Position numbers and translations under genes: made by a program. Shown piece by piece: positions 3,576 to 62,203 of a stretch of DNA of 62,203 nucleotides (positions within the stretch are counted from its first letter, which is position 1; each line of letters begins with the position of its first letter). This stretch comes from Deltaproteobacteria bacterium. Its GTDB lineage: Bacteria; Myxococcota_A; Bradymonadia; REDH01. The notes beneath the pieces were generated by a model that worked only from the letters and a program-made list of their open reading frames with translations, did no database searches and was not told the origin of the DNA. The stretch is from the NCBI GenBank assembly GCA_007693585.1, contig REDH01000086.1:1-62203 (forward strand), given 5' to 3'.

Positions 3576-6500
3576 ATGACGGGATGGTCGTTTCGAGGGG
3601 TTGCGGTCGCTGTGGGCTGTGCGTTGCTCGCCGCGTGCGGTGGAGGGGAACCGGCACCGCACGACGCGCAGGGATGCGACGAAGGCGCGGATGTCGCGGG
3701 TTGTCTGTCCGCGGACGACGCCGATGTTCGGGGCGGGGACGAGGACTCGCCCGCCGCGGTGGAGCGCCTCGCCTACTCGGCGCATGCCCTGCCCGGAATG
3801 CGCACCGTCGGACAGTTCGAAGGCTGGGTGGATCCGCGCACCGGGCAGGCCCACATCGAGATGGTGGACGAGCTGCAGCCCAAGAGCGCCGCGATTCCCG
3901 GCTATCGGGACGACGTCCGGCAGAACCGCGACGAAGGGGACTTCGAGAACCGGCGCCCCGGCACGCTGCGGTTCTGGCAGGACGAGTCCCCGGCCGTGAC
4001 GTCGTCCGATCTCGACGTCTGCCGAAACTTCTGGACGAATGGCTGGGCCAGCGACGGAGAGGACTTCCGCTTCGGATGGTATCCGGAAGGCCCCATCCGC
4101 GACGAGTTCCTCTTCAGCGTCCTGCCGCAGGGCGGCCCCGGCGCGGCGGCCCTGCCACCGAGCGACTACACCTTCTGCACCGACTTCCTCGTCCGCAACG
4201 ACACCGGGGCCGACCTCCGCGACCTGTGGATCCTGATCGACAACTTCACCGGCATCTCCGACGCGCGTTCGTATCTTGCCGATGCGCCCCGCGTGTACTT
4301 CGACGCCGTCGAGGGAACATTCGTCCGGCTCCAGCCGGACTCGAACATCGGGATGTTCCGATACGGTGCCCTCGCGGGCGGGCCAGAGCCGGGCGACGCC
4401 GAGATCGTCCGACGCCAGTGGATGTTCTACCTGGGCGACACGGATCCCGCGCCGTTCCGGCTGACGGGCCGACTCGTCGAACTGCAGCGCGAGGTATGCT
4501 GGAGCGGCAACGATGACAACGGCGACGGGGTGGCAGACAGCGGCTGCGGCACCGGCTGGGCCAACAGCCCCTGCTATCAGGACGCCGACTGCCTCAGCGG
4601 GACCTGCGTCGGCGGTGTGCTCGGCGACTTCACCACCGGCGGGGGCAGCCTCGGCACCTGTGCACTCAGCGAGGAAGGGCAGCCGTGTCGGCTCGCCACG
4701 GACTGCAGCGACTCGCTCCCCTGCGCTGGCGCCGATGACGACGCCAGGATCCTCGGCACCTGTGGCGGCGGTCCCGCTCCATGCACGCTCCCCTGGGGCG
4801 GCTCCATCGCGTCCGGCGCGTCCGTGCCCGCGTTCGAAACCGAATCCGTCGACTGCGGGCTCACCTGCGACATGGAGCTGCGCGAGTGCGACGACGGAGA
4901 ACTCTCCGGCTCGTTCCTCTTCGAGAGCTGCGATGCACCCGCGTGTCCCGTCGGCTACTTCGTGCTCTCCGCCCAGGCCCGCAACGGCAACCTCGGCGGC
5001 CTCGCCGGCGCCGCGCAGGCCTGCCTCGCCGAGCTCAACTCCAATACCTGGCTCGGACAGGAGGATGCCGTCAGCGCGGGACTGCTCACCGCAGATCGCG
5101 TCCGGCCCTTCCTGTGCTCCACCGATGGCTGCCTGCTGCCACAGGCCAACACCGAATACCTCTTCGCGGCCATGGACAGTTCTGCCGGTGGGGCGTCGTT
5201 CACCACCGACGGCGATCGCATCGGTCCGTTCGATACCGTGACGTGGGACGGACCGGACCACTTCGGCCAGAACGTCCCTTACCACACGGGGATGGCCAAT
5301 CTGGGCCTGTCGAACGATGAGTGGCTCGGCCTGCCCGACGAAGGCAACACCTGTCTCAACTGGACAACCGGCTCGATCATCCCCTACGCGCACACTTCGC
5401 TCACCGGAAGGTCCGGAAGTTTCGGCCGCCTGCGCTGGTCATCCAACGCCGTCGGGTGCAACACCGGCGGCCATCGACTCATCTGCATGGTCCACCCGGA
5501 GCCGGAGCCGCCCATCGCCCCCGCTTCCTGTGTGCTCCCCTGGGGAGGGACGCTGCCCCATGGCGAGAGCGTGACCGCATGGCAGGAAGCCGCCGCATGC
5601 AACGGCGAGTGCCTCTCCGAAGAGCGCTTCTGCGACGATGGTGTCCTGTCCGGAAGCTTCCGCAACGAGACGTGCACCGAGCTCGCCGTCGGCGCCTGCG
5701 ACAATCCCGGGTACTTCGTGCTCTCGAGAGAGTTCGTGATCGGCGGGGCACTCGGCGGACTCGCCGGTGCCAATGCAAGCTGCCTCGAGCGCCTGCAGAA
5801 CACCGACTGGCTCGGCAAGGATGACGCCGGACCGCTCACGGCCGACCGGGTCCGCGCGTTCCTCTGCGACGACAACGGTTGCCAGGACCCCGTTCCCGAC
5901 AGCGTCTACTTCTTCGCCGCCGCTACCCAGCCCGCCTCCGGCGGAGCACCCCTCGTCGTGGACAGCGAAGGCTACGGACCGAACGACCGCATCGCGTGGA
6001 CCGAGAGCAGGCGCTTCGACTTCAGCGGAAGCTACTACACCGGACGGCAGTGGGACGACGGCACACCCCAGGCCGATGAACGATGGTCACTCCTCCCGTC
6101 TGCAAGCACCTGCGGCAACTGGTCCGACGTCGATGCACTGGCGGGGACCGTGGGCGGCGCCATGCGAAGCGACTACCGCCGCTGGAACATGTCTCCCAGC
6201 GGAGCCTGCGGCACCGGCTCCGCCATGCTGGTCTGCATGGTGGATCCCGCCGCCACCGCTGATGGCGAGCTCGGAGATGCCTGCACCTCCGACGGCGACT
6301 GCGCCTCCGGACTCTGTGACCCAGTCCTCGACGAGTGCCGCCTTGCCCTCGGGGAGCCCTGCACCGAATCCGCGCAGTGCGTCGGGAACGCCTTCTGCGA
6401 AGGGGATCCGAACGTCTGCACCCCCGTCTTCGTGACCGTGTGGGACACCACATTGCCCGGCGTCAACAACGACTTCCAGATCGAACTGCCGCTGGAATCC

Positions 6501-7679
6501 GGGGGCAACTACAACTTCACCGTGGACTGGGGCGACGGAGAAGTCGACGTCATCACCGCCTTCGACGACATCGCCGTCCGCCACAACTATGGCGAGGAAG
6601 GCATCTACACCGTCGAGATCCGCGGCCAGATCGAAGGATGGCGCTTCGCGAACGGTGGCGACGCGCCCAAGCTCCTCGAAGTCTCCTCCTGGGGACCCCT
6701 CAGGCTCGGCAACGGTGGAAACTACTTCCACGGCGCCGAGAACCTCGAGATCACCGCCGTCGACGTGCTCGATCTCACCGGCACCATGTCCCTGTCCGCA
6801 GCCTTCCGAGACTGCACCAGCCTGACCAGCATCCCCTCCATCAACGCCTGGGACGTCTCTGCGGTCTCCAATCTGGGCTTCATGTTCCTCGGCGCGAGCA
6901 ACTTCAACGCCGATCTCGATCGGTGGGACGTGTTGAACGTCAGCAACTTCAACGCCATGTTCTGGGGTGCGTCCAGCTTCAACGGTGACGTCACCACCTG
7001 GAACACCGCGAACGCAAGCGTCCTCTCCAACATGTTCTTCGGTGCCAGCAGCTTCAACCGGGACATCGGCGGCTGGACCGTCGACAACGTCACCACGATG
7101 AACGGCCTCTTCTCCGGTGCATCCGACTTCAACCAGGACCTCAACGAGTGGAACGTCTCGAATGTCTGGATGATGCGGGAGGTCTTCCGCAACGCCTCGT
7201 CGTTCAACGGCGACATCAGCGACTGGAACGTCAGCGGCGCCTCGAACATGAGCCAGATGTTCTTCGGGGCCTCGGCATTCAACGGCGACATCAGCGAATG
7301 GAACGTCAGCGGCGCGACGGACATGCACGGCATGTTCAGCAGCGCGAGCAGTTTCAACCAGGACATCGGTGGCTGGAACGTGTCCAGCGTCACCGACATG
7401 CAAGGCATGTTCTCCAGTGCGAGTAGCTTCGATCAGGACCTCGGCAACTGGGACATCTCCAGCGTCACCAACCTGAACTTCATGTTCACAGGGATTTTGA
7501 GCCTCAGTACCGCCAACTACGATGCCCTCCTCATGGGCTGGGCCGCGCTCCCCACCGTCCCCTCGGACCTCACCTTCCACGCCATTGGCCGCCAGTACTC
7601 CAGCGCAGCCCAGGCCGCCCGGGACTTCCTGACCAACGAGAGGGGCTGGACCATCAACGACGGGGGACTCCTTCCCTGA
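3576..7679 (+). CDS. Surface lipoprotein with two DUF1554 domains and BspA/DUF285 repeats
   Basis: Large predicted outer-surface lipoprotein (1367 residues). ATG at 3576 follows GGAG by 9 nt. Signal peptide with lipobox LAAC. Residues about 30-320 are unassigned, followed by Cys-rich DCLSGTC-type segments. Residues about 456-640 and 711-888 are two copies of a DUF1554-like domain (GYFVLS, NGNLGGLAGA, NTEYLFAA, final ICMV), a fold described as C-type-lectin/endostatin-like in Leptospira surface proteins. A dickkopf-like Cys patch (about 897-948) precedes a PKD-like segment (FTVDWGDG) and then about eight 25-residue DUF285 repeats (ASSFNGDI..WNVS) to the C-terminus. BspA/DUF285 repeats are typical of adhesins and surface proteins. 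An adhesive role is inferred; no catalytic motif is visible. It stands alone between divergent and convergent neighbours. Confidence 0.82.
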   Translation: MTGWSFRGVAVAVGCALLAACGGGEPAPHDAQGCDEGADVAGCLSADDADVRGGDEDSPAAVERLAYSAHALPGMRTVGQFEGWVDPRTGQAHIEMVDELQPKSAAIPGYRDDVRQNRDEGDFENRRPGTLRFWQDESPAVTSSDLDVCRNFWTNGWASDGEDFRFGWYPEGPIRDEFLFSVLPQGGPGAAALPPSDYTFCTDFLVRNDTGADLRDLWILIDNFTGISDARSYLADAPRVYFDAVEGTFVRLQPDSNIGMFRYGALAGGPEPGDAEIVRRQWMFYLGDTDPAPFRLTGRLVELQREVCWSGNDDNGDGVADSGCGTGWANSPCYQDADCLSGTCVGGVLGDFTTGGGSLGTCALSEEGQPCRLATDCSDSLPCAGADDDARILGTCGGGPAPCTLPWGGSIASGASVPAFETESVDCGLTCDMELRECDDGELSGSFLFESCDAPACPVGYFVLSAQARNGNLGGLAGAAQACLAELNSNTWLGQEDAVSAGLLTADRVRPFLCSTDGCLLPQANTEYLFAAMDSSAGGASFTTDGDRIGPFDTVTWDGPDHFGQNVPYHTGMANLGLSNDEWLGLPDEGNTCLNWTTGSIIPYAHTSLTGRSGSFGRLRWSSNAVGCNTGGHRLICMVHPEPEPPIAPASCVLPWGGTLPHGESVTAWQEAAACNGECLSEERFCDDGVLSGSFRNETCTELAVGACDNPGYFVLSREFVIGGALGGLAGANASCLERLQNTDWLGKDDAGPLTADRVRAFLCDDNGCQDPVPDSVYFFAAATQPASGGAPLVVDSEGYGPNDRIAWTESRRFDFSGSYYTGRQWDDGTPQADERWSLLPSASTCGNWSDVDALAGTVGGAMRSDYRRWNMSPSGACGTGSAMLVCMVDPAATADGELGDACTSDGDCASGLCDPVLDECRLALGEPCTESAQCVGNAFCEGDPNVCTPVFVTVWDTTLPGVNNDFQIELPLESGGNYNFTVDWGDGEVDVITAFDDIAVRHNYGEEGIYTVEIRGQIEGWRFANGGDAPKLLEVSSWGPLRLGNGGNYFHGAENLEITAVDVLDLTGTMSLSAAFRDCTSLTSIPSINAWDVSAVSNLGFMFLGASNFNADLDRWDVLNVSNFNAMFWGASSFNGDVTTWNTANASVLSNMFFGASSFNRDIGGWTVDNVTTMNGLFSGASDFNQDLNEWNVSNVWMMREVFRNASSFNGDISDWNVSGASNMSQMFFGASAFNGDISEWNVSGATDMHGMFSSASSFNQDIGGWNVSSVTDMQGMFSSASSFDQDLGNWDISSVTNLNFMFTGILSLSTANYDALLMGWAALPTVPSDLTFHAIGRQYSSAAQAARDFLTNERGWTINDGGLLP
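6886..7485 (+). repeat. 75-bp coding repeats (DUF285 units)
   Basis: About eight diverged 75-bp units, each encoding 25 residues of the form ASxFNxDIxxWNVSxVxxM. Units differ at many third positions, so this is an old protein repeat and not a recent DNA slippage array. Confidence 0.8.
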
Positions 7680-7733
7680 CGGCAACGCGGAGCACCGACA
7701 GGGGACCGGAATCCAGCACGACCCGGATCGCCC

Positions 7734-8501
7734 TCAAGCCAGCGGATCCTCCCCGGGGTTGACCGTCATGCTTCGGCTGGCGTCGATGGCCACCGTCGTG
7801 GGCGAAGCCGGGTCAAAGCGTACCGGGACCTCCGCCCCCGGGGCATAGCGCTCGAGTCGCTGTTGATGAATCACCGCCATCGTCGTCGCATCGTATGGCA
7901 CGCCGTCCGCGCCGATCACCTTCAGGCGCAGGCGAGACACGACGCCGATGCGGTTCACCCGATGCGGCATGTCCGTGCGCTCGACCACGATCGCCGTGGC
8001 CGGGAGCCCGTCCGCGCTCAGCCGCTCCTTCTCCGCCTGCTGCTTCGTGACGAGGGCGAACAGCTCCTCCTTCGTGGCCGGGGTGTCCACGTCCGCATGA
8101 CCGTACGCGGCCAGAGCGATCTCCTTCTGCGGGCGTTCGGGGTTGTATCGAACGGTCACCGGCTGCCCCGGGACCGCGTGCATGGACTCGTGGGGCGGCA
8201 CCGGGCGCCTGACCCACGCCCGGAACGGATCGCCCTCTCGTGGGGTCACCTCCACCTCGAACCGGTAGACGAACACACCGTTGATGCGGGTTCCCGTGAT
8301 CTCGACCGTTCGGATCACCCCCGGCGCCGGTGTGCCCGTTCGAAGGACCGCCGGATTGAACATCCGCCGAAGCCAGACCAGCACGAACACGATGACGACA
8401 CCCGAGAAGAGGAAGGACGCCCCGATGATGGCGAAGGTCAGGCCCACCTCGGTATCGAGCACGGCGCTCAGGCGGTCGAACAGGGACGGGGTCTTGTCCA
8501 T
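7734..8501 (-). CDS. Membrane-anchored protein with two DUF3592-like beta domains
   Basis: 255 residues. One strong N-terminal membrane segment (about residues 20-44, FAIIGASFLFSGVVIVFVLVW) is followed by two similar soluble domains. Each has a GTPAPGVI or GLPATAIV opening, a central hydrophobic strand pair and a PGxxVxVRYNP/VRFDP ending. The duplication and the YNP/FDP motif resemble DUF3592-type domains, but the match is by eye and the function is unknown. It reads as a monocistronic gene between convergent and tandem neighbours, with its own candidate sigma-70 promoter just upstream. The C-terminus runs to the edge of the gap behind the DUF285 surface protein. Confidence 0.7.
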   Translation of the reverse strand: MDKTPSLFDRLSAVLDTEVGLTFAIIGASFLFSGVVIVFVLVWLRRMFNPAVLRTGTPAPGVIRTVEITGTRINGVFVYRFEVEVTPREGDPFRAWVRRPVPPHESMHAVPGQPVTVRYNPERPQKEIALAAYGHADVDTPATKEELFALVTKQQAEKERLSADGLPATAIVVERTDMPHRVNRIGVVSRLRLKVIGADGVPYDATTMAVIHQQRLERYAPGAEVPVRFDPASPTTVAIDASRSMTVNPGEDPLA

Positions 8502-17903: not shown

Positions 17904-19724
17904 ATGGAAGAAGGGGCCCCCATGGCTCCTCAACTCCACCCTCCAGCACACGACAGCGCGGCCATGAACGGAACCCCTCGCATCCAGCGAATCTCACGCA
18001 TTCTCGCCCTCTCGGCGGGGAGTCTCTCCATTCTGCTCGCCCTCTCCGGTTGCGGTTCGGGAGGCGGGCTCGACCCGCAGGAACCGTCCGAGTCGTTCGC
18101 CCTCGACGAGTGCGAACGAGATCGGGACTGCGTCGGCGGGGAGCAGTGCCTCGAGGGTCTCTGCAGGGAGCTCTGCGCCGTGGAGGACGGGTGCGAAGGC
18201 CCGCTCCCGTTCTGCGATCTCGGGCGAGGCATCTGCGTCGCCTGCCTGACCGACGACGACTGCGGCGGCGGCCGGTGTGACGAGCTGCGCTGCCGGGCAT
18301 CCGGCTGCGGCGAAGGACCCGCATGCGGGGAGGGAGAGATCTGCGACTTGGCCGAAGGCATCTGCCTGCCCGAGACCTGTTCCGTCAACACTGACTGCCC
18401 CGGCGGCTTCCAGTGCCGAAACGACGAGTGCACACCCATCGAACAGGCCGGATGCACACCGGGAACCTCCCGCTGCTCCGGGGACGTGGCCATCCGGTGC
18501 TCCGCGGCCGGTGCCGAGCAGCGCGAGGACTGTGCCGTGCAGGAACGCGCCTGCCGTGTACAGGGCGGGGAAGCCATCTGCGAAAGCCCGATCGGACCCC
18601 CGGCGACCGAGGAACCCGGCACGGAAGTTCCCGGCACGGAAGTCCCGGGCACGGAGGTTCCCGGCACGGAAGTTCCCGGCACGGAAGTCCCGGGCACGGA
18701 AGTCCCGGGCACGGAAGTCCCGGGCACGGAAGTTCCCGGCACGGAAGTCCCGGGCACGGAAGTCCCGGGCACGGAAGTTCCCGGCACGGAGCCAACGGAC
18801 TGCAATGAGGGAGAGGTCGGCTGTTTCTCGTCCGAGCTCGCCTGGTTCTGCGACGAGGACGAGCGCATCGCGGTACCCTGCGGCGCCGGGGAGCAGTGCA
18901 GGGCGGGCGCCTGTGAGCCACCCCCCACGGGGCCGGGTTCCTGCGGCGCGGCGCGCGCCCAGTGCTCCGCGCCGGGGTGGCCCTCCGGACGGTTGCTCCT
19001 GGCGCGACCGGGCGATACCATCGCCTGCAGCGGCGCCGGGAGCACCGGTGCGGACGGTGCGTCGGCCACAACGTGGACGTGGACGCATGTGACTCCATCC
19101 GAGGGGGCGCCGTTCACCCCCTCGGCGACGGCGCGCGACGCCAGCTATGCCGTGGGCGAACCGGGACCGGAGATCGTGCGCCTGGAGAGCGGGAACGCCG
19201 CTGGAGACGCCTGCGAACCTGAATGGGTGCAGACCGCCGTGGTCGACCGCTCCTCGGAGGGACTGTTCATCGTGATCGGATGGAGGGCGGAAGCCACCGG
19301 GTCGCCGATGGGCTCTCGCGATGTGGATGTCTACCTCCGCCGTGGTGAGACGGGGCTCTGGCGCGGCTCGGGTACTTCGGTGTTCTGGCAGCAGCGCGCC
19401 CCCACATGGACGCGGGGGGAGCGGCTCATGAACCCGGTGCTCGTGCAGGACTCGATCCGGGACGGGGGGCCCGAGGTGCTCCACGTCCCGAGCTGGTTCT
19501 CCGAAGAGACCTTCAGCGTGGGCGTTCACTACTACACCACCACCAACAACGCCTCCGCCGCTCCGGTGCTCGTCGACCTCCTGCTGGTGCGGGATGGCCG
19601 AGTCGTGCACCGCAGCGAGGGCGTGCGCCTCGGAGGCGATCAGCAGTTCTGGCACGCGGTTGACTTCAGCGGCTCCAGCCCCACCGTCACCCCGGTGAAC
19701 GCGTTCTCGCGATTCACCGAGTGA
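17904..19724 (+). CDS. Cys-rich lipoprotein with (GTEVP)n linker
   Basis: 606 residues from ATG 17904, which has GGAGAG 5 nt upstream. An ATG at 17964 would give a more normal 30-residue signal peptide but has no ribosome-binding site. Lipobox LSGC. Residues about 65-220 hold Cys-rich modules (CERDRDCVGGEQC, CLTDDDCGGGRC, CSVNTDCPGGFQC). Then come eleven GTEVP units, another Cys segment, and a C-terminal beta-rich domain of about 270 residues that starts near the GDTIACSGAGSTG segment and looks PKD/Ig-like, ending in an unassigned module. Predicted to be surface-exposed. I recognise no enzyme motif. Confidence 0.75.
   Translation: MEEGAPMAPQLHPPAHDSAAMNGTPRIQRISRILALSAGSLSILLALSGCGSGGGLDPQEPSESFALDECERDRDCVGGEQCLEGLCRELCAVEDGCEGPLPFCDLGRGICVACLTDDDCGGGRCDELRCRASGCGEGPACGEGEICDLAEGICLPETCSVNTDCPGGFQCRNDECTPIEQAGCTPGTSRCSGDVAIRCSAAGAEQREDCAVQERACRVQGGEAICESPIGPPATEEPGTEVPGTEVPGTEVPGTEVPGTEVPGTEVPGTEVPGTEVPGTEVPGTEVPGTEVPGTEPTDCNEGEVGCFSSELAWFCDEDERIAVPCGAGEQCRAGACEPPPTGPGSCGAARAQCSAPGWPSGRLLLARPGDTIACSGAGSTGADGASATTWTWTHVTPSEGAPFTPSATARDASYAVGEPGPEIVRLESGNAAGDACEPEWVQTAVVDRSSEGLFIVIGWRAEATGSPMGSRDVDVYLRRGETGLWRGSGTSVFWQQRAPTWTRGERLMNPVLVQDSIRDGGPEVLHVPSWFSEETFSVGVHYYTTTNNASAAPVLVDLLLVRDGRVVHRSEGVRLGGDQQFWHAVDFSGSSPTVTPVNAFSRFTE
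18618..18782 (+). repeat. 15-bp tandem repeat, 11 units, encoding GTEVP
   Basis: Eleven 15-bp units of the form GGCACGGAAGTYCCS. Variation is almost all synonymous, with two unit types ending TTCCC or TCCCG, plus one partial unit. Copy number can change without a frameshift. Confidence 0.92.
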
Positions 19725-47514: not shown

Positions 47515-48495
47515 ATGATCAACCTGACAAACCGCCTTCTGCTCACCGCGCTACTCGCCCTCTCCGGAGCCGTCCTCGCCGCCTGCGGCGACGACGAAGA
47601 CCCGGCCACCACCGCCACCCCGGACCCGTCCAGCCCCAGCTCCGGGAACGGGACCGACATCCCCTCCGGAGAGCTCGGCAACATCGCCGAGGTCGCCACC
47701 GAAGCCGGCAACTTCACCATCCTGCTCCAGGCGGTCGAGGCCGCAGGACTCGCCGACGCACTCGCCGGGACCGATGACCTCACCGTCTTCGCCCCCACCG
47801 ACGCCGCCTTCGAGGCCGCCATCACCGCGCTCGGCACCACCGCCGATGACCTGCTCGCCGACACCGAGCTCCTCGGCACCGTGCTCACCTACCACGTCGT
47901 CGCCGGCACCGTGCTGAGCACCGACCTCGAGACCGGACCCGCCAGCACCCTCGGCGGTCTCTCCCTGTGGGTCAACCTCCTCCCCGAAGGCGTCCGCATC
48001 AACAACGCCGCCGTCACCGCAGCCGACGTTCGCGCCAGCAACGGCGTCATCCACGTCATCGACGCCGTGATGCTCCCGGCCAACATCGTCGACATGGCCA
48101 CCTACGCCGGCCTGAACACCCTCGTCTCCGCCGTCGACGCCGCCAATCTCGGCGGAACCCTCGCCGACCCCACCAACTCCCTCACCGTCTTCGCCCCCTC
48201 CGACGAAGCCTTCGACGCAGCGCTGACCGCACTCGGCCTCACCGCCGATGCGCTCTTCGCCGACGAAGAACTCCTCGGAAACATTCTCGGGTACCACGTG
48301 TTCCCCGCAGCAGCCCTCTCCTCCGAACTCTCCGATGGCCAGGTCCTCGAGATGTTCAACGGCGAGGACGCCACCGTCGATCTCACCGCACTCACCGTCG
48401 GCGGCGCCCGGCTCGGCGTCCTCGACATCGTGGTCACCAATGGCGTGATCCACACCCTCGACGACGTGATGGTGCCCCCGTCCCTCGAGGATTGA
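47515..48495 (+). CDS. Lipoprotein with two fasciclin (FAS1) domains
   Basis: 326 residues. ATG 47515 follows GGGGACCTGC. Signal peptide and lipobox LAAC, then an Asp/Thr/Pro/Ser linker and two FAS1 domains (about 55-190 and 195-325). Each has the FAS1 core: LTVFAPTDAAFEA or LTVFAPSDEAFDA, then TYHVV/GYHVF and NGVIHVIDAV/NGVIHTLDDV near the end. FAS1 proteins mediate cell-cell and cell-matrix adhesion. A terminator and then the 78-bp repeat array follow. Confidence 0.92.
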   Translation: MINLTNRLLLTALLALSGAVLAACGDDEDPATTATPDPSSPSSGNGTDIPSGELGNIAEVATEAGNFTILLQAVEAAGLADALAGTDDLTVFAPTDAAFEAAITALGTTADDLLADTELLGTVLTYHVVAGTVLSTDLETGPASTLGGLSLWVNLLPEGVRINNAAVTAADVRASNGVIHVIDAVMLPANIVDMATYAGLNTLVSAVDAANLGGTLADPTNSLTVFAPSDEAFDAALTALGLTADALFADEELLGNILGYHVFPAAALSSELSDGQVLEMFNGEDATVDLTALTVGGARLGVLDIVVTNGVIHTLDDVMVPPSLED

Positions 48496-48540
48496 CCACC
48501 ACGGGGCACACCGCCCCGCGACGGAAGCCTCGCTTCGCAC

Positions 48541-48577
48541 ACGCCCCGCCCGGTCTGCCCGGCGGGGCGTTGGCTTT
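48541..48577 (+). terminator. Rho-independent-like terminator after the fasciclin gene
   Basis: ACGCCCCGCC and GGCGGGGCGT form a perfect 10-bp stem around a 10-nt loop, followed by TGGCTTT. It lies 45 nt after the stop codon. Confidence 0.7.
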
Positions 48578-48630
48578 GCAGCAGTGACGCCACGCTGCCG
48601 AGTCGGTTGGCACGAAACCCACCCCGACCG

Positions 48631-48960
48631 GTTCGCCCCGCGGGCTGTCATCGACGACTCGTCGATGACACGGGCTCAGGGAAGACGACGCCGAAGGCAC
48701 GCTGCCCGGTTCGCCCCGCGAGCTGTCATCGACGATTCGTCGATGACACGGGCTCAGGGAAGACGACGCCGAAGGCACGCTGCCCGGTTCGCCCCGCGAG
48801 CTGTCATCGACGATTCGTCGATGACACGGGCTCAGGGAAGACGACGCCGAAGGCACGCTGCCCGGTTCGCCCCGCGAGCTGTCATCGACGATTCGTCGAT
48901 GACACGGGCTCAGGGAAGACGACGCCGAAGGCACGCTGCCCGGTTCGCCCCGCGAGCTGT
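48631..48960. repeat. 78-bp direct repeats (4.2 copies), each with a perfect 25-bp palindrome
   Basis: Units begin at 48631, 48709, 48787 and 48865; a fifth begins at 48943 and stops after 18 bp. Copies 2-4 are identical. Copy 1 differs at two bases, one being the centre of the palindrome. Each unit holds TGTCATCGACGA, one central base, and the exact complement TCGTCGATGACA (48646-48670, 48724-48748, 48802-48826, 48880-48904). The array fills most of the 497-bp gap between two convergent lipoprotein genes. Because 78 is a multiple of 3 the array is open in several frames, but I see no gene in it. Confidence 0.93.
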
Positions 48961-48992
48961 TGTCGTGGAGCGGAACAACCCACGATGGAGAC

Positions 48993-51005
48993 TCAACCTG
49001 CCGAGTGCTCCTCGGGCGTGCCGGAGCCACTCTGCCCGGACGCGCCGCTGCCCTCGTCCGTGCCGCCCGGCTCGGAGGGCTCTGCAGCCGGATCGAGGCA
49101 CACCCCCCCGGACGACAGCTCCAGCCGGAGTGCGTCCGCAAAGGCCTCGTGGATCCCGTCCGCATCCTCGTCCTCGAAGATCAGCTCCACCCGGAGCTCG
49201 TCGACACCTTCCGGGATCACCATGCTCGCGGCACGGCGCACCAGGGCCTGACCATCCCCGAGATCCTCGTCGCGCACCGGGCCGAGCAGCAGCTCGTCCA
49301 CCCGACGTCCCTCTCCGCGAAGCAGAACGCGCAGACGGACCGTGTCCTCGCTGCCGGCGAGGACGCCGAACCACCCCTCGACGTCGAGCTGGACGGCTCC
49401 CGCACCGATCTCCTCCGACAGGTTGGCGAGATCGATCTCCTGGCGCGCGCGCACCGTGCCAGCGCCCTCCGCCGCGAAGTGCCGGTCCCCCCGATCGGAA
49501 GGACCGCTCAGCGCCGAGGGGAGCCCTGCAGCAGAGTCCCATCCCACCGACAGCAGGGCACCACTGATCAACTCCCAGCCAGTCGCCAGCGCGATCGCCG
49601 GGCCGGGCGTGGTGGGTTCCGGCGTGGTGGGGTCGGGGGTGCCTGTTTCGGACGGGTCCGGTTCGGAGGGTTCTGGCGTGGTGGGGTCGGGGGTGCCCGT
49701 TTCGGACGGGTCCGGTTCGGAGGGTTCTGGCGTGGTGGGGTCGGGGGTGCCTGTTTCGGACGGGTCCGGTTCGGAGGGTTCTGGCGTGGTGGGGTCGGGG
49801 GTGCCCGTTTCGGACGGGTCCGGTTCGGAGGGTTCTGGCGTGGTGGGGTCGGGGGTGCCTGTTTCGGACGGGTCCGGTTCGGAGGGTTCTGGCGTGGTGG
49901 GGTCGGGGGTTGTCGGGACCGGCTCCGTGGGTTCTGGCGTGGTGGGGTCCGTAGGGCCAGGCTCCGTGGGGCTGTCCTCGTTCTTCGCGGGTCCATTCTC
50001 CTCCATCCGCACAAACGCCTCGGCACCACCATTGGCGAGGAGGGAGGGGCAGGGGTCGATCCCGTCCACGACGGTCACGAGCACGGAGGCCTCCGCCGTG
50101 CGTGTCTCGCTCTGCGCCACGACCCGCAGTGCGAGGGTGGTTCCGGCTTCGAGCCCGTCGAGCTCGAACCGAAAGCCGCGATCCTCATCCAGGGCGTCGA
50201 GCAGGTCGAACGCCTCGTCCTCGTCAACGATGATCTCGAGCCGCGTGACATCGAGGGTGCCGGTGACCTCCCCTTCCACGAGGAGTGCTGGAGCCACCAC
50301 CTGGGAGCCGTCCGCCGGGGACAGGATGCTCACCCCGAACGCCGTGGCGTCCTCGGGCTCGCGGATCACGGTGATGCTCATCTCGGCGGCCTGGTCGGAG
50401 GTGTCGATGGCCCGGAGGAGCAGCGTGTTCTCTCCGGTCTCCAGCGCGACATCCGCTTCGAAGCCCCCTTCGTCGTCCAGCAGCGGAAGCACGTTGATGG
50501 CGGAACCGTCGTTCACGCGCAGCGTCGCCGACCGCACCCCGTAGTCGTCGGTCACCGTGCCGCGCACGCGGATCGACTCTGCCGTGGTGCGCTCGCCGTC
50601 CGCGGGTTCGAGAAAGGCGACCTCGGGCACATCGTCCCGCCGGCGGATCGTGAGCGCGGCCGAGCCCGTGTATCCCTGGATGTTGGTGGCCGCCACCGTA
50701 AGCACGTTGTTGCCGGGCTCGAGTCCCGTCACCGTGAGGGTGAAGGTGTTGGTGGCAGCATCCCAGCCGTTGAACCCGCTTGTCGCGGGCTCCCCGTTGA
50801 GGCTCCACGTCAGCGCGGTCAGGGCCGACGGAGACTGGATGGTGCCGTTCACCCGGACCTCGTCGCCGTCCACCACGGTGCCCGGGGTGGGGCTGGTGAA
50901 CGCCACCTGCGGCGTATTGAGGGCGGAACGGATGGCCTCGCATCCCGTCAGGAACGGTGCGACGAGGACGAAGAGCGCCAGCAGGCGAAGCGAAGGCGGA
51001 TTCAT
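48993..51005 (-). CDS. Large lipoprotein with Ig-like domains and a repeated Pro/Thr/Glu/Ser linker
   Basis: 670 residues. ATG 51005 follows GGTGAG. Lipobox LTGC (Cys about 20). Residues about 28-310 form three or four Ig/cadherin-like beta domains (VAFTSPTPGTVVDGDEVRVNG, VAFLEPADGERTTAESIRVRG, VSILSPADGSQVVAPALLVEG) resembling bacterial Ig-like domains in surface proteins. Residues about 345-465 are the Pro/Thr/Glu/Asp/Ser linker built of 18-residue units. The C-terminal about 190 residues form a beta-rich module (ATGWELISGALL...VRLRVLLRGEGRRVDELLLG), possibly carbohydrate-binding-like, but I cannot name it. Probably surface-displayed. Promoter candidate about 110 bp upstream. Confidence 0.82.
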   Translation of the reverse strand: MNPPSLRLLALFVLVAPFLTGCEAIRSALNTPQVAFTSPTPGTVVDGDEVRVNGTIQSPSALTALTWSLNGEPATSGFNGWDAATNTFTLTVTGLEPGNNVLTVAATNIQGYTGSAALTIRRRDDVPEVAFLEPADGERTTAESIRVRGTVTDDYGVRSATLRVNDGSAINVLPLLDDEGGFEADVALETGENTLLLRAIDTSDQAAEMSITVIREPEDATAFGVSILSPADGSQVVAPALLVEGEVTGTLDVTRLEIIVDEDEAFDLLDALDEDRGFRFELDGLEAGTTLALRVVAQSETRTAEASVLVTVVDGIDPCPSLLANGGAEAFVRMEENGPAKNEDSPTEPGPTDPTTPEPTEPVPTTPDPTTPEPSEPDPSETGTPDPTTPEPSEPDPSETGTPDPTTPEPSEPDPSETGTPDPTTPEPSEPDPSETGTPDPTTPEPSEPDPSETGTPDPTTPEPTTPGPAIALATGWELISGALLSVGWDSAAGLPSALSGPSDRGDRHFAAEGAGTVRARQEIDLANLSEEIGAGAVQLDVEGWFGVLAGSEDTVRLRVLLRGEGRRVDELLLGPVRDEDLGDGQALVRRAASMVIPEGVDELRVELIFEDEDADGIHEAFADALRLELSSGGVCLDPAAEPSEPGGTDEGSGASGQSGSGTPEEHSAG
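49615..49884. repeat. 54-bp coding repeat, five copies, with an alternating variant
   Basis: Five 54-bp units (18 residues of the type DPTTPEPSEPDPSETGTP). They differ mainly at one synonymous C/T position (GCCTG or GCCCG on the plus strand) that strictly alternates along copies 1-5. That points to duplication of a 108-bp two-unit block. Degenerate units continue to about 49960. Confidence 0.88.
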
Positions 51006-52384: not shown

Positions 52385-54493
52385 TCAGTTCGGGGGAAAG
52401 AACAGCACCAGGTCCCCGATCCAGCCGGTGTCCTCGAACCGGTCCACGCTCCCGTCCTTTGCGTAGGTGAAGGTGACGGCCTCGGTGCCCTCCGGCAGGG
52501 ACAGTGTGGCCTGTTGCCAGCCCGTGTCGCCGGAGATCCGCTCGTCGAAGCCGAAGCTGCGGTTGCAGGCGCTGCGGCCGGTGCACACCAGGAGGTAGTC
52601 GAAGTTGTTCTCCGAACTGGCACGCCAGTTCCACTGCATGGCGGTAGCGTCACTGGGCAGCTCGATGGTCAGGCTGGTGCTCTGGTTGTGCGTGACGGAT
52701 CCCGCGCGCAGCGCCGGATCCCCTTCCGGGGTCTCGACGGCCGTGTCCTCGGTCCATGCGGACACGCCGAAACGCAGCCCGGTGAGCAGGATGGCAGCAT
52801 CGCCCGGGAGCGACTGCGCCGTAACCTCGATGGTCGAGAAAGCGCGGTCGTAGGTCACCGGCCCGAAGGGCATCTCCCACGACATGACCGTCGGAGGAAT
52901 GAGGTTCGTGTCGTCCTCGTCGATGAGCGCGTACCGAAGCTGAGGGATCGGCTGGCCACTCGAGACCTCGAACGTGCGGTCGAGCCCGTCGGACCCACGC
53001 TGCAGCACGATGCGCTCGATCAGCACGAACTGGTCGAGTGCTCGCGTGAAGAACCCCCCCTCGGCGGACGAACCAAGGGTGAACGTCTCCTCGAGAGCCG
53101 TGACCTGGGGATCCGCGTCCGGATCGAACGCTTCGCCGAGCAGGGTCCCTTCAATGGGCTCCAGGCCAAGGTCCGGGGCGAGATTCAGCAACACGAGCTG
53201 GTTCCGTTCGAAAGGCACCGCGCGAACCGTGATCGCGAAGTCCTCGTCGACCCCGGGGTCACCATCGCCTCCATCCCCGCCATCGCCGCCCCCGTCCGGC
53301 TCGACCTCGTCCAGCCGGATGAACACCATCACCCGCTGCATCGGCTCGCCCGTGATGACCTGATCCAGACTGAACTGCGATGGTGGCAGGAAGGGGTCGT
53401 CGCCGAAGCCGTCGGACACGTCGCCGAAATCGAACTGACCCTCGCCGAAGTCGAAGCCACCCTCCCCGATGTCGAACTGACCCTCGCCGAACGGATCGTC
53501 CGACCGAAGCACCACCCGGATGTCTCCCGGCCGCAATCCGCTCAACCGCTCGGTGCGGTTGCCGGACAGGAAGCCCTCCCGCCCGGCGACCCGCCAGATC
53601 ACGTCGATGCCCGTCGGGTTCACCAACTCGACCTCCACGAGGCCCTCGACCACGTCCACATCGTTGCGCTCGAACACATCCACCGAGCACCCGTCCGTGG
53701 CGATGGCGACCACCTGCTGGCCCTCGCCCGCGCCCCGCGGGGTCAGCGTCCACGACCCATCCTCCTCCGCCACACGGAACGAACCCGCCACCAGCCGCAC
53801 GCGGATGGCGTCCTCGTCAATGCCACCAGCCACCTCGACCGTCACCGGCCCGAACGGCCAGTTCGCGTAGTACGGCTCCTCGGGAAGCGTGATCGAGCTG
53901 ATCGTCAGCGGGGTGGCGCCGGCGCACGGCGCATCCTCACCCGGCTCTCCGGTCGGCCCCGGCTCCCCGGTCGGCCCCGGCTCCCCGGTCGGCCCCGGCT
54001 CCCCGTCGCATACCGGCGTCTCCGACAGCAGCGTGCGATCCTCATCCTCCGCAGGACCGTCCCACACCGAGACAAGCACGCCCCCGTTGGGACAGGCCTC
54101 ACCAGGTTCGAGCGGCGTCACCTCCGTCCATGCGGTCTCCCCGTCTGCTCCCGCCGCACCCTCTGGCCCGGCCGGTCCCTCGGGTCCCGCGGGACCTTCC
54201 GGCCCGGTCGCCCCTGCCAGGCCTTCCGCATTGCACAGGGTCTCGGTCGACACCGTCTCCCGGGAACCGTCCACCTCGCGGAAGAACTCCACGCGAAACC
54301 CGCCCGCCGGACAGTCGGCGTCGCCAGCATCCAGTCGCGTCACGTCCGCGAGCACCGCCGCGCCCGGAGGGCCCATCGGACCCTCGATGACCTCGTCCTC
54401 GTCCCGCGTGGAGCAGGCGGATGCGCCGATGGAGAGGGCGAGCGCAAGCACGGCCACTCGGGGAAGGAGTCGACATCGTCGGGAATACTGCAT
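52385..54493 (-). CDS. Lipoprotein with collagen-like Gly-X-Y and DUF7151-like segments
   Basis: 702 residues. ATG 54493. Signal peptide and lipobox SACS. N-terminal half alternates Cys-containing modules (DADCPAGGFRVEFFREVDG...ETLCNAEG; EACPNGGVLVSVWDG...TPVCDGEPG), which resemble DUF7151, with collagen-like triplets (GPEGPAGPEGPAGPEG; GEPGPTGEPGPT). The rest is beta-rich and unassigned, with an acidic Gly/Asp run (GGDGGDGGDGDPG) near residue 420 and a Gly/Phe/Asp repeat (FDIGEGGFDFGEGQ). Short bacterial collagen-like regions form extended stalks; a surface role is inferred. The final about 100 residues look like a beta-sandwich. Confidence 0.8.
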   Translation of the reverse strand: MQYSRRCRLLPRVAVLALALSIGASACSTRDEDEVIEGPMGPPGAAVLADVTRLDAGDADCPAGGFRVEFFREVDGSRETVSTETLCNAEGLAGATGPEGPAGPEGPAGPEGAAGADGETAWTEVTPLEPGEACPNGGVLVSVWDGPAEDEDRTLLSETPVCDGEPGPTGEPGPTGEPGPTGEPGEDAPCAGATPLTISSITLPEEPYYANWPFGPVTVEVAGGIDEDAIRVRLVAGSFRVAEEDGSWTLTPRGAGEGQQVVAIATDGCSVDVFERNDVDVVEGLVEVELVNPTGIDVIWRVAGREGFLSGNRTERLSGLRPGDIRVVLRSDDPFGEGQFDIGEGGFDFGEGQFDFGDVSDGFGDDPFLPPSQFSLDQVITGEPMQRVMVFIRLDEVEPDGGGDGGDGGDGDPGVDEDFAITVRAVPFERNQLVLLNLAPDLGLEPIEGTLLGEAFDPDADPQVTALEETFTLGSSAEGGFFTRALDQFVLIERIVLQRGSDGLDRTFEVSSGQPIPQLRYALIDEDDTNLIPPTVMSWEMPFGPVTYDRAFSTIEVTAQSLPGDAAILLTGLRFGVSAWTEDTAVETPEGDPALRAGSVTHNQSTSLTIELPSDATAMQWNWRASSENNFDYLLVCTGRSACNRSFGFDERISGDTGWQQATLSLPEGTEAVTFTYAKDGSVDRFEDTGWIGDLVLFFPPN
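53943..53996. repeat. 18-bp repeat, three copies, encoding GEPGPT
   Basis: Three tandem 18-bp units in the collagen-like stalk of the lipoprotein gene, differing at one base. In frame, so stalk length can vary. Confidence 0.85.
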
Positions 54494-60688: not shown

Positions 60689-62203
60689 CGCCATTCACCG
60701 ATCCCCGGTCCATCGATCCGCACCCCCCGAAGGAAAGCGGACAGACAGACGGCTCGACCACCGAGACGATCGGCTGCACCGGTTCTCCTCTCCGCGCTGG
60801 CGTCCATGGACGGCCAGCGCGCAGCGCACGCCCGGCCCAGGTGGACACGTGGCATGGACCCTGTTCGTCCTGGCGATCCTCGCCGCCGCCGCCGCGCCGG
60901 CGTGTTCGCTCGCACCGTTGGACGAGGGCGTGAACCGATGCGGGGCAGCGGGCGCCGACCCCGACCTGCTCGGCGAGGCCTGCGGCGAGTGCGGCGTATG
61001 GTCCTGCGCCCGGCCCGGGTCCAACGAGCTGGCCTGCCGCGGTCAGGTGCACCCCTGCGGTGGACGTTGCCCGGAGCTCTACGGCCACGGCGCGCCCCGG
61101 GAGGACGCGGCTCCGGGACAGGTCTGCGACGCCGCCGGGGTCTCCTTGTGGCAGTGCACGGATGCCTGGACCCTCGACTGCATTCCCCGAGATCGAAACG
61201 CATGCGGCGGCTCCGATGGCCTCGTGGCCACCCCCGGCGCGCCCTGCGGAGACAACTGCTGGCGAGACGCCTGGGCCTGCACCGGGGACGACGAGTCCCC
61301 GCTGGCCTGCGAAGCCAACCGCAACCTGTGCGGCGGCTGCGACCCGCTGCCCGGTCTCCCGGGAAACCCCTGCGGATCCTGCGGCGGCGCCTGGACATGC
61401 GACGAGGCCCTGGGCACCACCGTCTGCTCCCGGGAAACCAACACCTGCGGGGGATGCGAGACCCTCACGATCGACGGACAACCCGCCGCGCCGGGAGTCC
61501 CCTGCCCGGGAGGACGCGCCGTCTGTGATGGCACCGACGGATTGCGGTGTGCGCCGGAGGGAGAGCAGGTCAATCCGTGCGGCGGGCAGACCCGCCTCGA
61601 CGCCGTGCCCGGCGACGTGCGCGCCGACTGCCCGCTGTGCGTCCTGCAGTGCGACGGCCGGGACGCCCTCCGGTGCCGCCCGCCCAGCAGCCCCCTCGAG
61701 GGCCCGGATGCTTGCGGGGGATGCGCCCTCCTCCCCGGCCTGCCCGGAGAAGCCTGTGGAGCCGAGCATGCCTGGTCCTGTGAGGGCACGGACCTGGTCT
61801 GCGCCCTCGCAGCCGAAGCATGCGCCAACCCGACCACGTGGTATCTGGACCGGAACGGGGACGGACTGGGGGACCCCCGGTATCCGCTGCGCAGCTGCTC
61901 ACGCCCGTTCGGCTACGTCTCCAACGACCGGGACCGCTGTCCGGACGGTCAGCCGCGCGATGCGGACGATCGATGCCCGGGGGAGTCCTCGATCTCCATT
62001 CCGGTGGAGCGGAACGCCTGCGGAGGAACCGAGGCTCTCGACGGTGAACCCGGCGACCCTTGCGGCGCGTGCGTCGAGGGGATCTGGGTTTGCATCGGTA
62101 CCGACCGCGTGGAGTGCTCGGTGTCGCTGGCCGCGCAGGAACAGGCCTGCGGTACAGGGACGGAGCCCGTGGAGCCGACGGAGCCCGTGGAGCCGACGGA
62201 GCC
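60681..62203 (+). CDS. Cys-rich envelope protein, C-terminus beyond the window
   Basis: Open from ATG 60681 to the last base (at least 507 residues). GGAGGT lies 5 nt upstream of this ATG, which falls inside the FHA gene, so the two are coupled. A basic 56-residue lead precedes a hydrophobic segment (TLFVLAILAAAAAPAC); GTG 60849 would instead give a normal lipoprotein signal with lipobox APAC. The rest is about nine Cys-rich modules of the form NxCGGC..LxGxPGxxCG...WxC, with one thrombospondin-3-like calcium segment (YLDRNGDGLGD). It ends in an EPVEPTEP linker. No function recognised. Confidence 0.75.
   Translation, partial: MADAIHRSPVHRSAPPEGKRTDRRLDHRDDRLHRFSSPRWRPWTASAQRTPGPGGHVAWTLFVLAILAAAAAPACSLAPLDEGVNRCGAAGADPDLLGEACGECGVWSCARPGSNELACRGQVHPCGGRCPELYGHGAPREDAAPGQVCDAAGVSLWQCTDAWTLDCIPRDRNACGGSDGLVATPGAPCGDNCWRDAWACTGDDESPLACEANRNLCGGCDPLPGLPGNPCGSCGGAWTCDEALGTTVCSRETNTCGGCETLTIDGQPAAPGVPCPGGRAVCDGTDGLRCAPEGEQVNPCGGQTRLDAVPGDVRADCPLCVLQCDGRDALRCRPPSSPLEGPDACGGCALLPGLPGEACGAEHAWSCEGTDLVCALAAEACANPTTWYLDRNGDGLGDPRYPLRSCSRPFGYVSNDRDRCPDGQPRDADDRCPGESSISIPVERNACGGTEALDGEPGDPCGACVEGIWVCIGTDRVECSVSLAAQEQACGTGTEPVEPTEPVEPTE
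62160..62203 (+). repeat. 18-bp linker repeat running off the window
   Basis: About two and a half 18-bp units encoding TEPVEP at the window end, in frame with the Cys-rich protein. Full length unknown. Confidence 0.8.

Follow-up and report, generated by a model that had tools for sequence, protein, structure and literature searches.

Bacterial intergenic minisatellite (VNTR) loci serve MLVA typing. Hairpins in intergenic sequence are also described from two other systems. In the sections of PMC8355165 used here, clustered hairpins are reported as terminators, 98% of correctly identified sites lie within 80 nt, and one section heading states that poly A/U trails are not necessary. The portion of PMC3733652 cited here describes repetitive extragenic palindromes (REPs) as often extragenic and located 3' of genes between convergent ORFs. 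In this study we describe a tandem array of a palindrome-bearing 78-bp unit, which is probably a lineage-specific intergenic minisatellite with a hairpin-carrying unit and perhaps a cluster of bidirectional 3'-end hairpins.

Genomic setting of the array

The window, meaning the whole stretch of 62,203 bp that was analysed, corresponds to C109, one of the 223 contigs that make up a draft genome of 4,971,832 bases; G+C is about 70%. The thiolase encoded here has its best relatives, at about 70–73% identity, mostly among records assigned to Myxococcaceae or Myxococcales, and the bacterium is thus probably a member of the Myxococcota. An earlier note on this DNA had placed the array between two lipoprotein genes, and this position was confirmed, with a fasciclin gene on the plus strand and an Ig-domain gene on the minus strand. 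The two genes are convergent, an orientation absent from that note. For the Ig-domain lipoprotein the Pfam scan used a longer frame reaching to 51158. The features of the region are the following:

47515–48495, plus strand: flanking, convergent fasciclin-domain lipoprotein gene (PF02469, E 2e-54, two stretches)
48496–48992, no strand: convergent intergenic spacer containing the array
48541–48570, plus strand: separate terminator-like hairpin 3' of the fasciclin gene, with perfect arms of 10 bp and a TTGGCTTT tail
48628–48960, no strand: tandem array with four complete 78-bp units and a further 21 bp
48646–48670, no strand: palindrome of copy 1, centre C
48724–48748, no strand: palindrome of copy 2, centre T
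48802–48826, no strand: palindrome of copy 3, centre T
48880–48904, no strand: palindrome of copy 4, centre T
48993–51005, minus strand: flanking, convergent Ig-like (Big_7) lipoprotein gene (PF17957, E 7e-17)

A separate terminator on the fasciclin side had been noticed before and is indeed present as the hairpin at 48541–48570, with a short and weak T tail. Within 48400–49100 the sole consensus terminator is on the plus side (48556–48569), and the minus strand of the same interval yielded no consensus terminator.

Some further repeats and related genes were observed in the same genome. At 6249–8102 of another contig (G000:C157) the fasciclin lipoprotein has a paralogue, with about 52% identity in two matched stretches; neither was matched in five genomes of the same family. 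Within the Ig-domain lipoprotein gene, 54-bp repeats at 49614–49949 (5.5–6.4 copies) encode a Pro/Thr/Ser/Glu-rich linker of the EPSEPDPSETGTPDPTTP type. Another probable secreted protein, encoded on the minus strand at 52385–54457, contains a short collagen-like Gly-X-Y stretch, which is encoded by 18-bp repeats (53940–54005) and matches Pfam Collagen under the cut-off (E 1.3e-4). A 15-bp tandem repeat of 11.7 copies at 18615–18790 is probably coding. The contig terminates within an 18-bp tandem repeat (62159–62203) and the assembly therefore probably broke there.

Layout of the repeat units

Tandem Repeats Finder places the array at 48628–48960 with a period of 78, 4.3 copies and 99% matches. 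An exact-shift test showed identity at a shift of 78 across 48628–48882 with two mismatches, corresponding to an array length of 333 bp (4 x 78 + 21 bp). The full copies start at 48628, 48706, 48784 and 48862, and in every one of them two 12-bp arms around one central base form an exact palindrome, leaving 53 nt between one hairpin and the next. Both tests and the palindrome coordinates thus bear out the array of 78-bp repeats, each full copy with an exact 25-bp palindrome, that had been read from the letters of the window. Three units are identical, as had been said; these are copies 2–4, and their identity points to recent amplification. The deviant unit was previously taken to be the fourth, whereas it proved to be the first, in which two bases differ: G instead of A at 48643 and C instead of T at 48658, the centre of the palindrome. 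The longest exact repeat within the array is 224 bp. The view that the array is not a CRISPR holds, and this candidate is ruled out by the contiguous units of period 78 without unique spacers.

It had also been pointed out that both 12-bp arms are unchanged in all copies. The observation is correct, but as an argument it carries no weight: two random substitutions in 78 bp spare the 24 arm bases with a probability of 0.48. Arm preservation is uninformative, since three copies are identical and two substitutions have about half a chance to miss the arms.

At the right edge of the array, a covariance model of the unit gave a weak match at 48933–48992, the first 28 bases of which are common with the array. 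This stretch may be a decayed fifth copy of the unit. A 17-of-20 match slightly further on, at about 49020–49040, may point the same way but is located inside the lipoprotein gene; 2 of 1000 shuffles were equally good. In the left flank no significant similarity to a decayed copy of the unit was seen (113 and 66 of 1000 shuffles).

Occurrence of the palindrome and the array in this and other genomes

In the whole 5-Mb genome the palindrome at up to 3 mismatches is found in four places only, all of them in the array and each read on both strands. A DNA search of the same genome with a 430-bp region gave nothing outside the array better than E 0.02, and BLAST revealed no second array locus. When 57 genomes were searched, the present one included, the 56 others showed no match better than E 0.003. 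The exact palindrome pattern had no occurrence in viral contigs or in GTDB genome contigs, and phages and plasmids contained no similar DNA, whereby these collections may omit records of the genome itself or very near ones. A phage or plasmid origin was rejected on the lack of similar DNA in phages and plasmids.

Each flanking protein was searched in 38 genomes, and neither was matched in five genomes of the same family. The locus therefore appears absent there, which says nothing about the array; the genomes searched included no other member of the genus. The earlier note had reasoned that a palindrome absent elsewhere, combined with an array lost in close relatives, would probably mean a local slippage product. 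The first half of this was found, as the palindrome at up to 3 mismatches is confined to the array.

Comparison with chance and with other arrays of the genome

Ten first-order random sequences of window length contained no palindrome with an arm of at least 12 and a loop up to 10. In 795,768 bases sampled from the same genome (16%) there were five palindromes with an arm of at least 12 and a loop of at most 4, four of them outside called genes. This rarity in random sequence and in the genome sample indicates that composition does not trivially produce such a palindrome. The palindromes of the array go back to a single event that was multiplied and do not count as four.

Tandem arrays of period 20 or more were also collected from the 795,768-base sample. 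Among the 35 listed, 21 were coding, 13 noncoding and one at a contig edge, as judged by a crude gene caller, which called 78% of the sample coding; some of the 13 noncoding arrays partly overlap called genes. Five of the 13 lie in convergent spacers, which account for 24,311 of the 145,699 spacer bases. None of the 13 holds a palindrome with an arm of at least 9 wholly inside, the largest arm listed being 8. Noncoding arrays in convergent spacers include L067:3225–3305 (32-bp x 2.5, the unit containing a small hairpin) and L172:8370–8504 (28-bp x 4.8). One of the 13, a 45-bp x 2.4 tandem array at L183:5807–5916, has its end straddled by a perfect palindrome of arm 13 (L183:5896–5921), so that at L183:5807–5921 the genome shows a palindrome combined with a tandem duplication for a second time, in weaker form. 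The array under study thus fits what this genome tends to produce, and its palindrome is better than those of the other arrays.

From 13 units of about 505 bp summed in 16% of the genome and 5 palindromes per 796 kb, we estimated by hand and after the fact that 0.02–0.07 coincidences of a long palindrome within an array are expected per genome. Pure chance is therefore somewhat unlikely, which counts against the minisatellite reading and is suggestive of a link, through hairpin-promoted duplication or function, without being proof.

Folding of the palindromes

Folding of the bare palindrome stem yields -15.8 kcal/mol on both strands; with flanks, a 40-nt piece reaches -22.0. The whole spacer folds better than its shuffles, with z-scores of -7.7 on the plus and -6.8 on the minus strand, as expected since any array of palindromes must do so. 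With regard to the two roles that had been suggested for the dyads, hairpin elements are plausible, the palindrome being a strong hairpin former on either strand, while a protein-binding array is unsupported.

A probable intergenic minisatellite with a possible role at 3' ends

The array is probably an ordinary intergenic minisatellite, though its unit is striking. It consists of head-to-tail near-identical units at one noncoding locus; the palindrome is confined to this locus, the spacer is convergent and noncoding arrays recur in the genome. We propose that a 78-bp dyad-bearing stretch in the convergent spacer was recently amplified to about four copies. Slippage or unequal recombination would account for the amplification, and the hairpin itself may have favoured it.

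Function, if there is any, would most likely be exerted via the hairpins, as each copy is predicted to fold to the same 11-bp stem in either direction. Such a hairpin cluster would assist in terminating or protecting the converging transcripts, above all the one from the minus-strand lipoprotein gene, which showed no canonical terminator. The strong stem on both strands, the presence of a consensus terminator on the plus side alone and the terminator function reported for clustered hairpins in PMC8355165 are in favour of a 3'-end role. Against it, no T-run follows the palindrome on either strand, so that the array palindromes lack the stem-loop and subsequent T-run of a canonical intrinsic terminator. 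The palindrome nearest to the minus-strand stop codon lies 88 nt past the stop, compared to the 80-nt range given in the part of PMC8355165 cited above. A 40-nt scan of spacers detected no excess of strong hairpins in convergent spacers (median -19.1, versus -19.8 for divergent and -18.8 for co-directional spacers), and a general excess of this kind was dropped as support for a terminator role.

A more ambitious version, to which we give little probability, is a lineage-specific cis-acting array: a candidate multi-site platform to which a dimeric protein would bind, or bidirectional terminators stacked in a tuneable way, so that the number of copies would set read-through between the two surface lipoprotein genes. 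If copy number did tune termination between the convergent surface-protein genes, this would be a simple expression-tuning device.

Alternative explanations

Near-symmetric 25-bp dyads at fixed spacing could each be the site of a dimeric DNA-binding protein, the tandem spacing building a multi-site complex such as an operator cluster or a centromere-like or nucleoid site. This symmetry constitutes the positive support, and from the sequence such a protein-binding array, as proposed in the earlier note, appears unlikely. The genome contains no other site at up to 3 mismatches; there are 19 looser sites outside the array, and the six inspected were all in called coding frames. No obvious local regulator of the palindrome was present among the 17 other window proteins scanned, the DNA-handling ones being a housekeeping-type sigma factor and a primase. 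A site that lies 3' of both genes would be an unusual operator. The DNA helix has 10.5 bp per turn, and 78 bp is a non-integer number of helical turns.

We consider it similarly improbable that the copy number is an assembly product, i.e. a repeat collapsed or expanded in the draft genome. The 224-bp exact repeat exceeds what common short reads resolve, the genome is in 223 contigs, and the number of copies may depend on the assembly. However, the array sits within a continuous 62-kb contig, and copy 1 can be told apart from the rest; provided that the contig is correct, two or more copies are therefore real.

Much less likely still is a REP/BIME-like origin, that is a family of repetitive extragenic palindromes mobilised by a RAYT transposase and clustered in tandem here. 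The array is extragenic, palindromic and located 3' of genes between convergent ORFs, but it is a single genomic locus without dispersed copies, and an unpaired tag motif is not apparent by eye. A search for the Y1 (RAYT-type) transposase PF01797 gave no hits in this genome; the control search was positive in 5 of 14 known genomes. The single locus had already largely refuted REP/RAYT, and together with the lack of PF01797 hits it led us to reject this candidate.

Equally remote is an element of structured RNA or single-stranded DNA whose units would each fold into a three-way junction, with a GCCCG/CGGGC stem enclosing two hairpins. The minimum-energy DNA fold of one unit on the plus strand does give a junction in which no base is left unpaired at the branch point. 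When the flanks were shuffled 2000 times each with the palindrome kept fixed, 659 (RNA, plus strand), 1608 (RNA, minus strand), 374 (DNA, plus strand) and 1094 (DNA, minus strand) shuffles folded as well or better; the extra pairing is thus ordinary, and the element was rejected on this result. The covariance model of the unit produced 28 matches at E up to 0.1 in 15 of the 57 genomes, nine of them in the array or its edge. Those off the array were weak. In the best of them (G011, 34.6 bits, E 1.4e-5) several pairs are broken, and all six that were checked, this one included, fall in long open frames. We treated the off-array matches as chance, although the E-values of the model are rough. The spacer had no Rfam match at the gathering score, which argues against a known RNA family, and relaxing the threshold to E 10 added only miRNA-hairpin matches that scored well below their cut-offs.

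Repetitive coding sequence with 26-residue repeats is the least likely explanation, in line with the earlier view that the array is not a plausible gene: 78 is divisible by 3 and three or more of the six frames are open through the array, but the three open frames contain no Pfam family above cut-off (one minus-strand frame has a single hit below it, E 4.6e-4), extend into the lipoprotein gene in antisense or into the end of the fasciclin gene, and have a third-position G+C of only 0.59–0.74.

Comparison with known systems

As a minisatellite, the array is a possible strain-typing marker, and it offers a naturally occurring case of tandem amplification of a palindrome. It resembles the REP/BIME elements of PMC3733652, to the extent that they are described in the portion cited, in that extragenic palindromes lie 3' of genes and are sometimes clustered in tandem. 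It differs from them in its single locus, without dispersed copies, a RAYT-type transposase or an apparent tag motif. With the clustered-hairpin intrinsic terminators of PMC8355165, as presented in the sections used, it shares strong hairpins in series downstream of stop codons, for which a U-tract is not obligatory. In contrast to those clusters, where fewer than 15 nt separate the hairpins, the spacing here is 53 nt, and the copies are exact repeats starting 88 nt past the minus-strand stop.

Like bacterial minisatellite or VNTR loci, the array occupies a single intergenic position and repeats a unit of tens of bases head to tail in near-identical copies; unlike them, its unit carries an unusually perfect palindrome.
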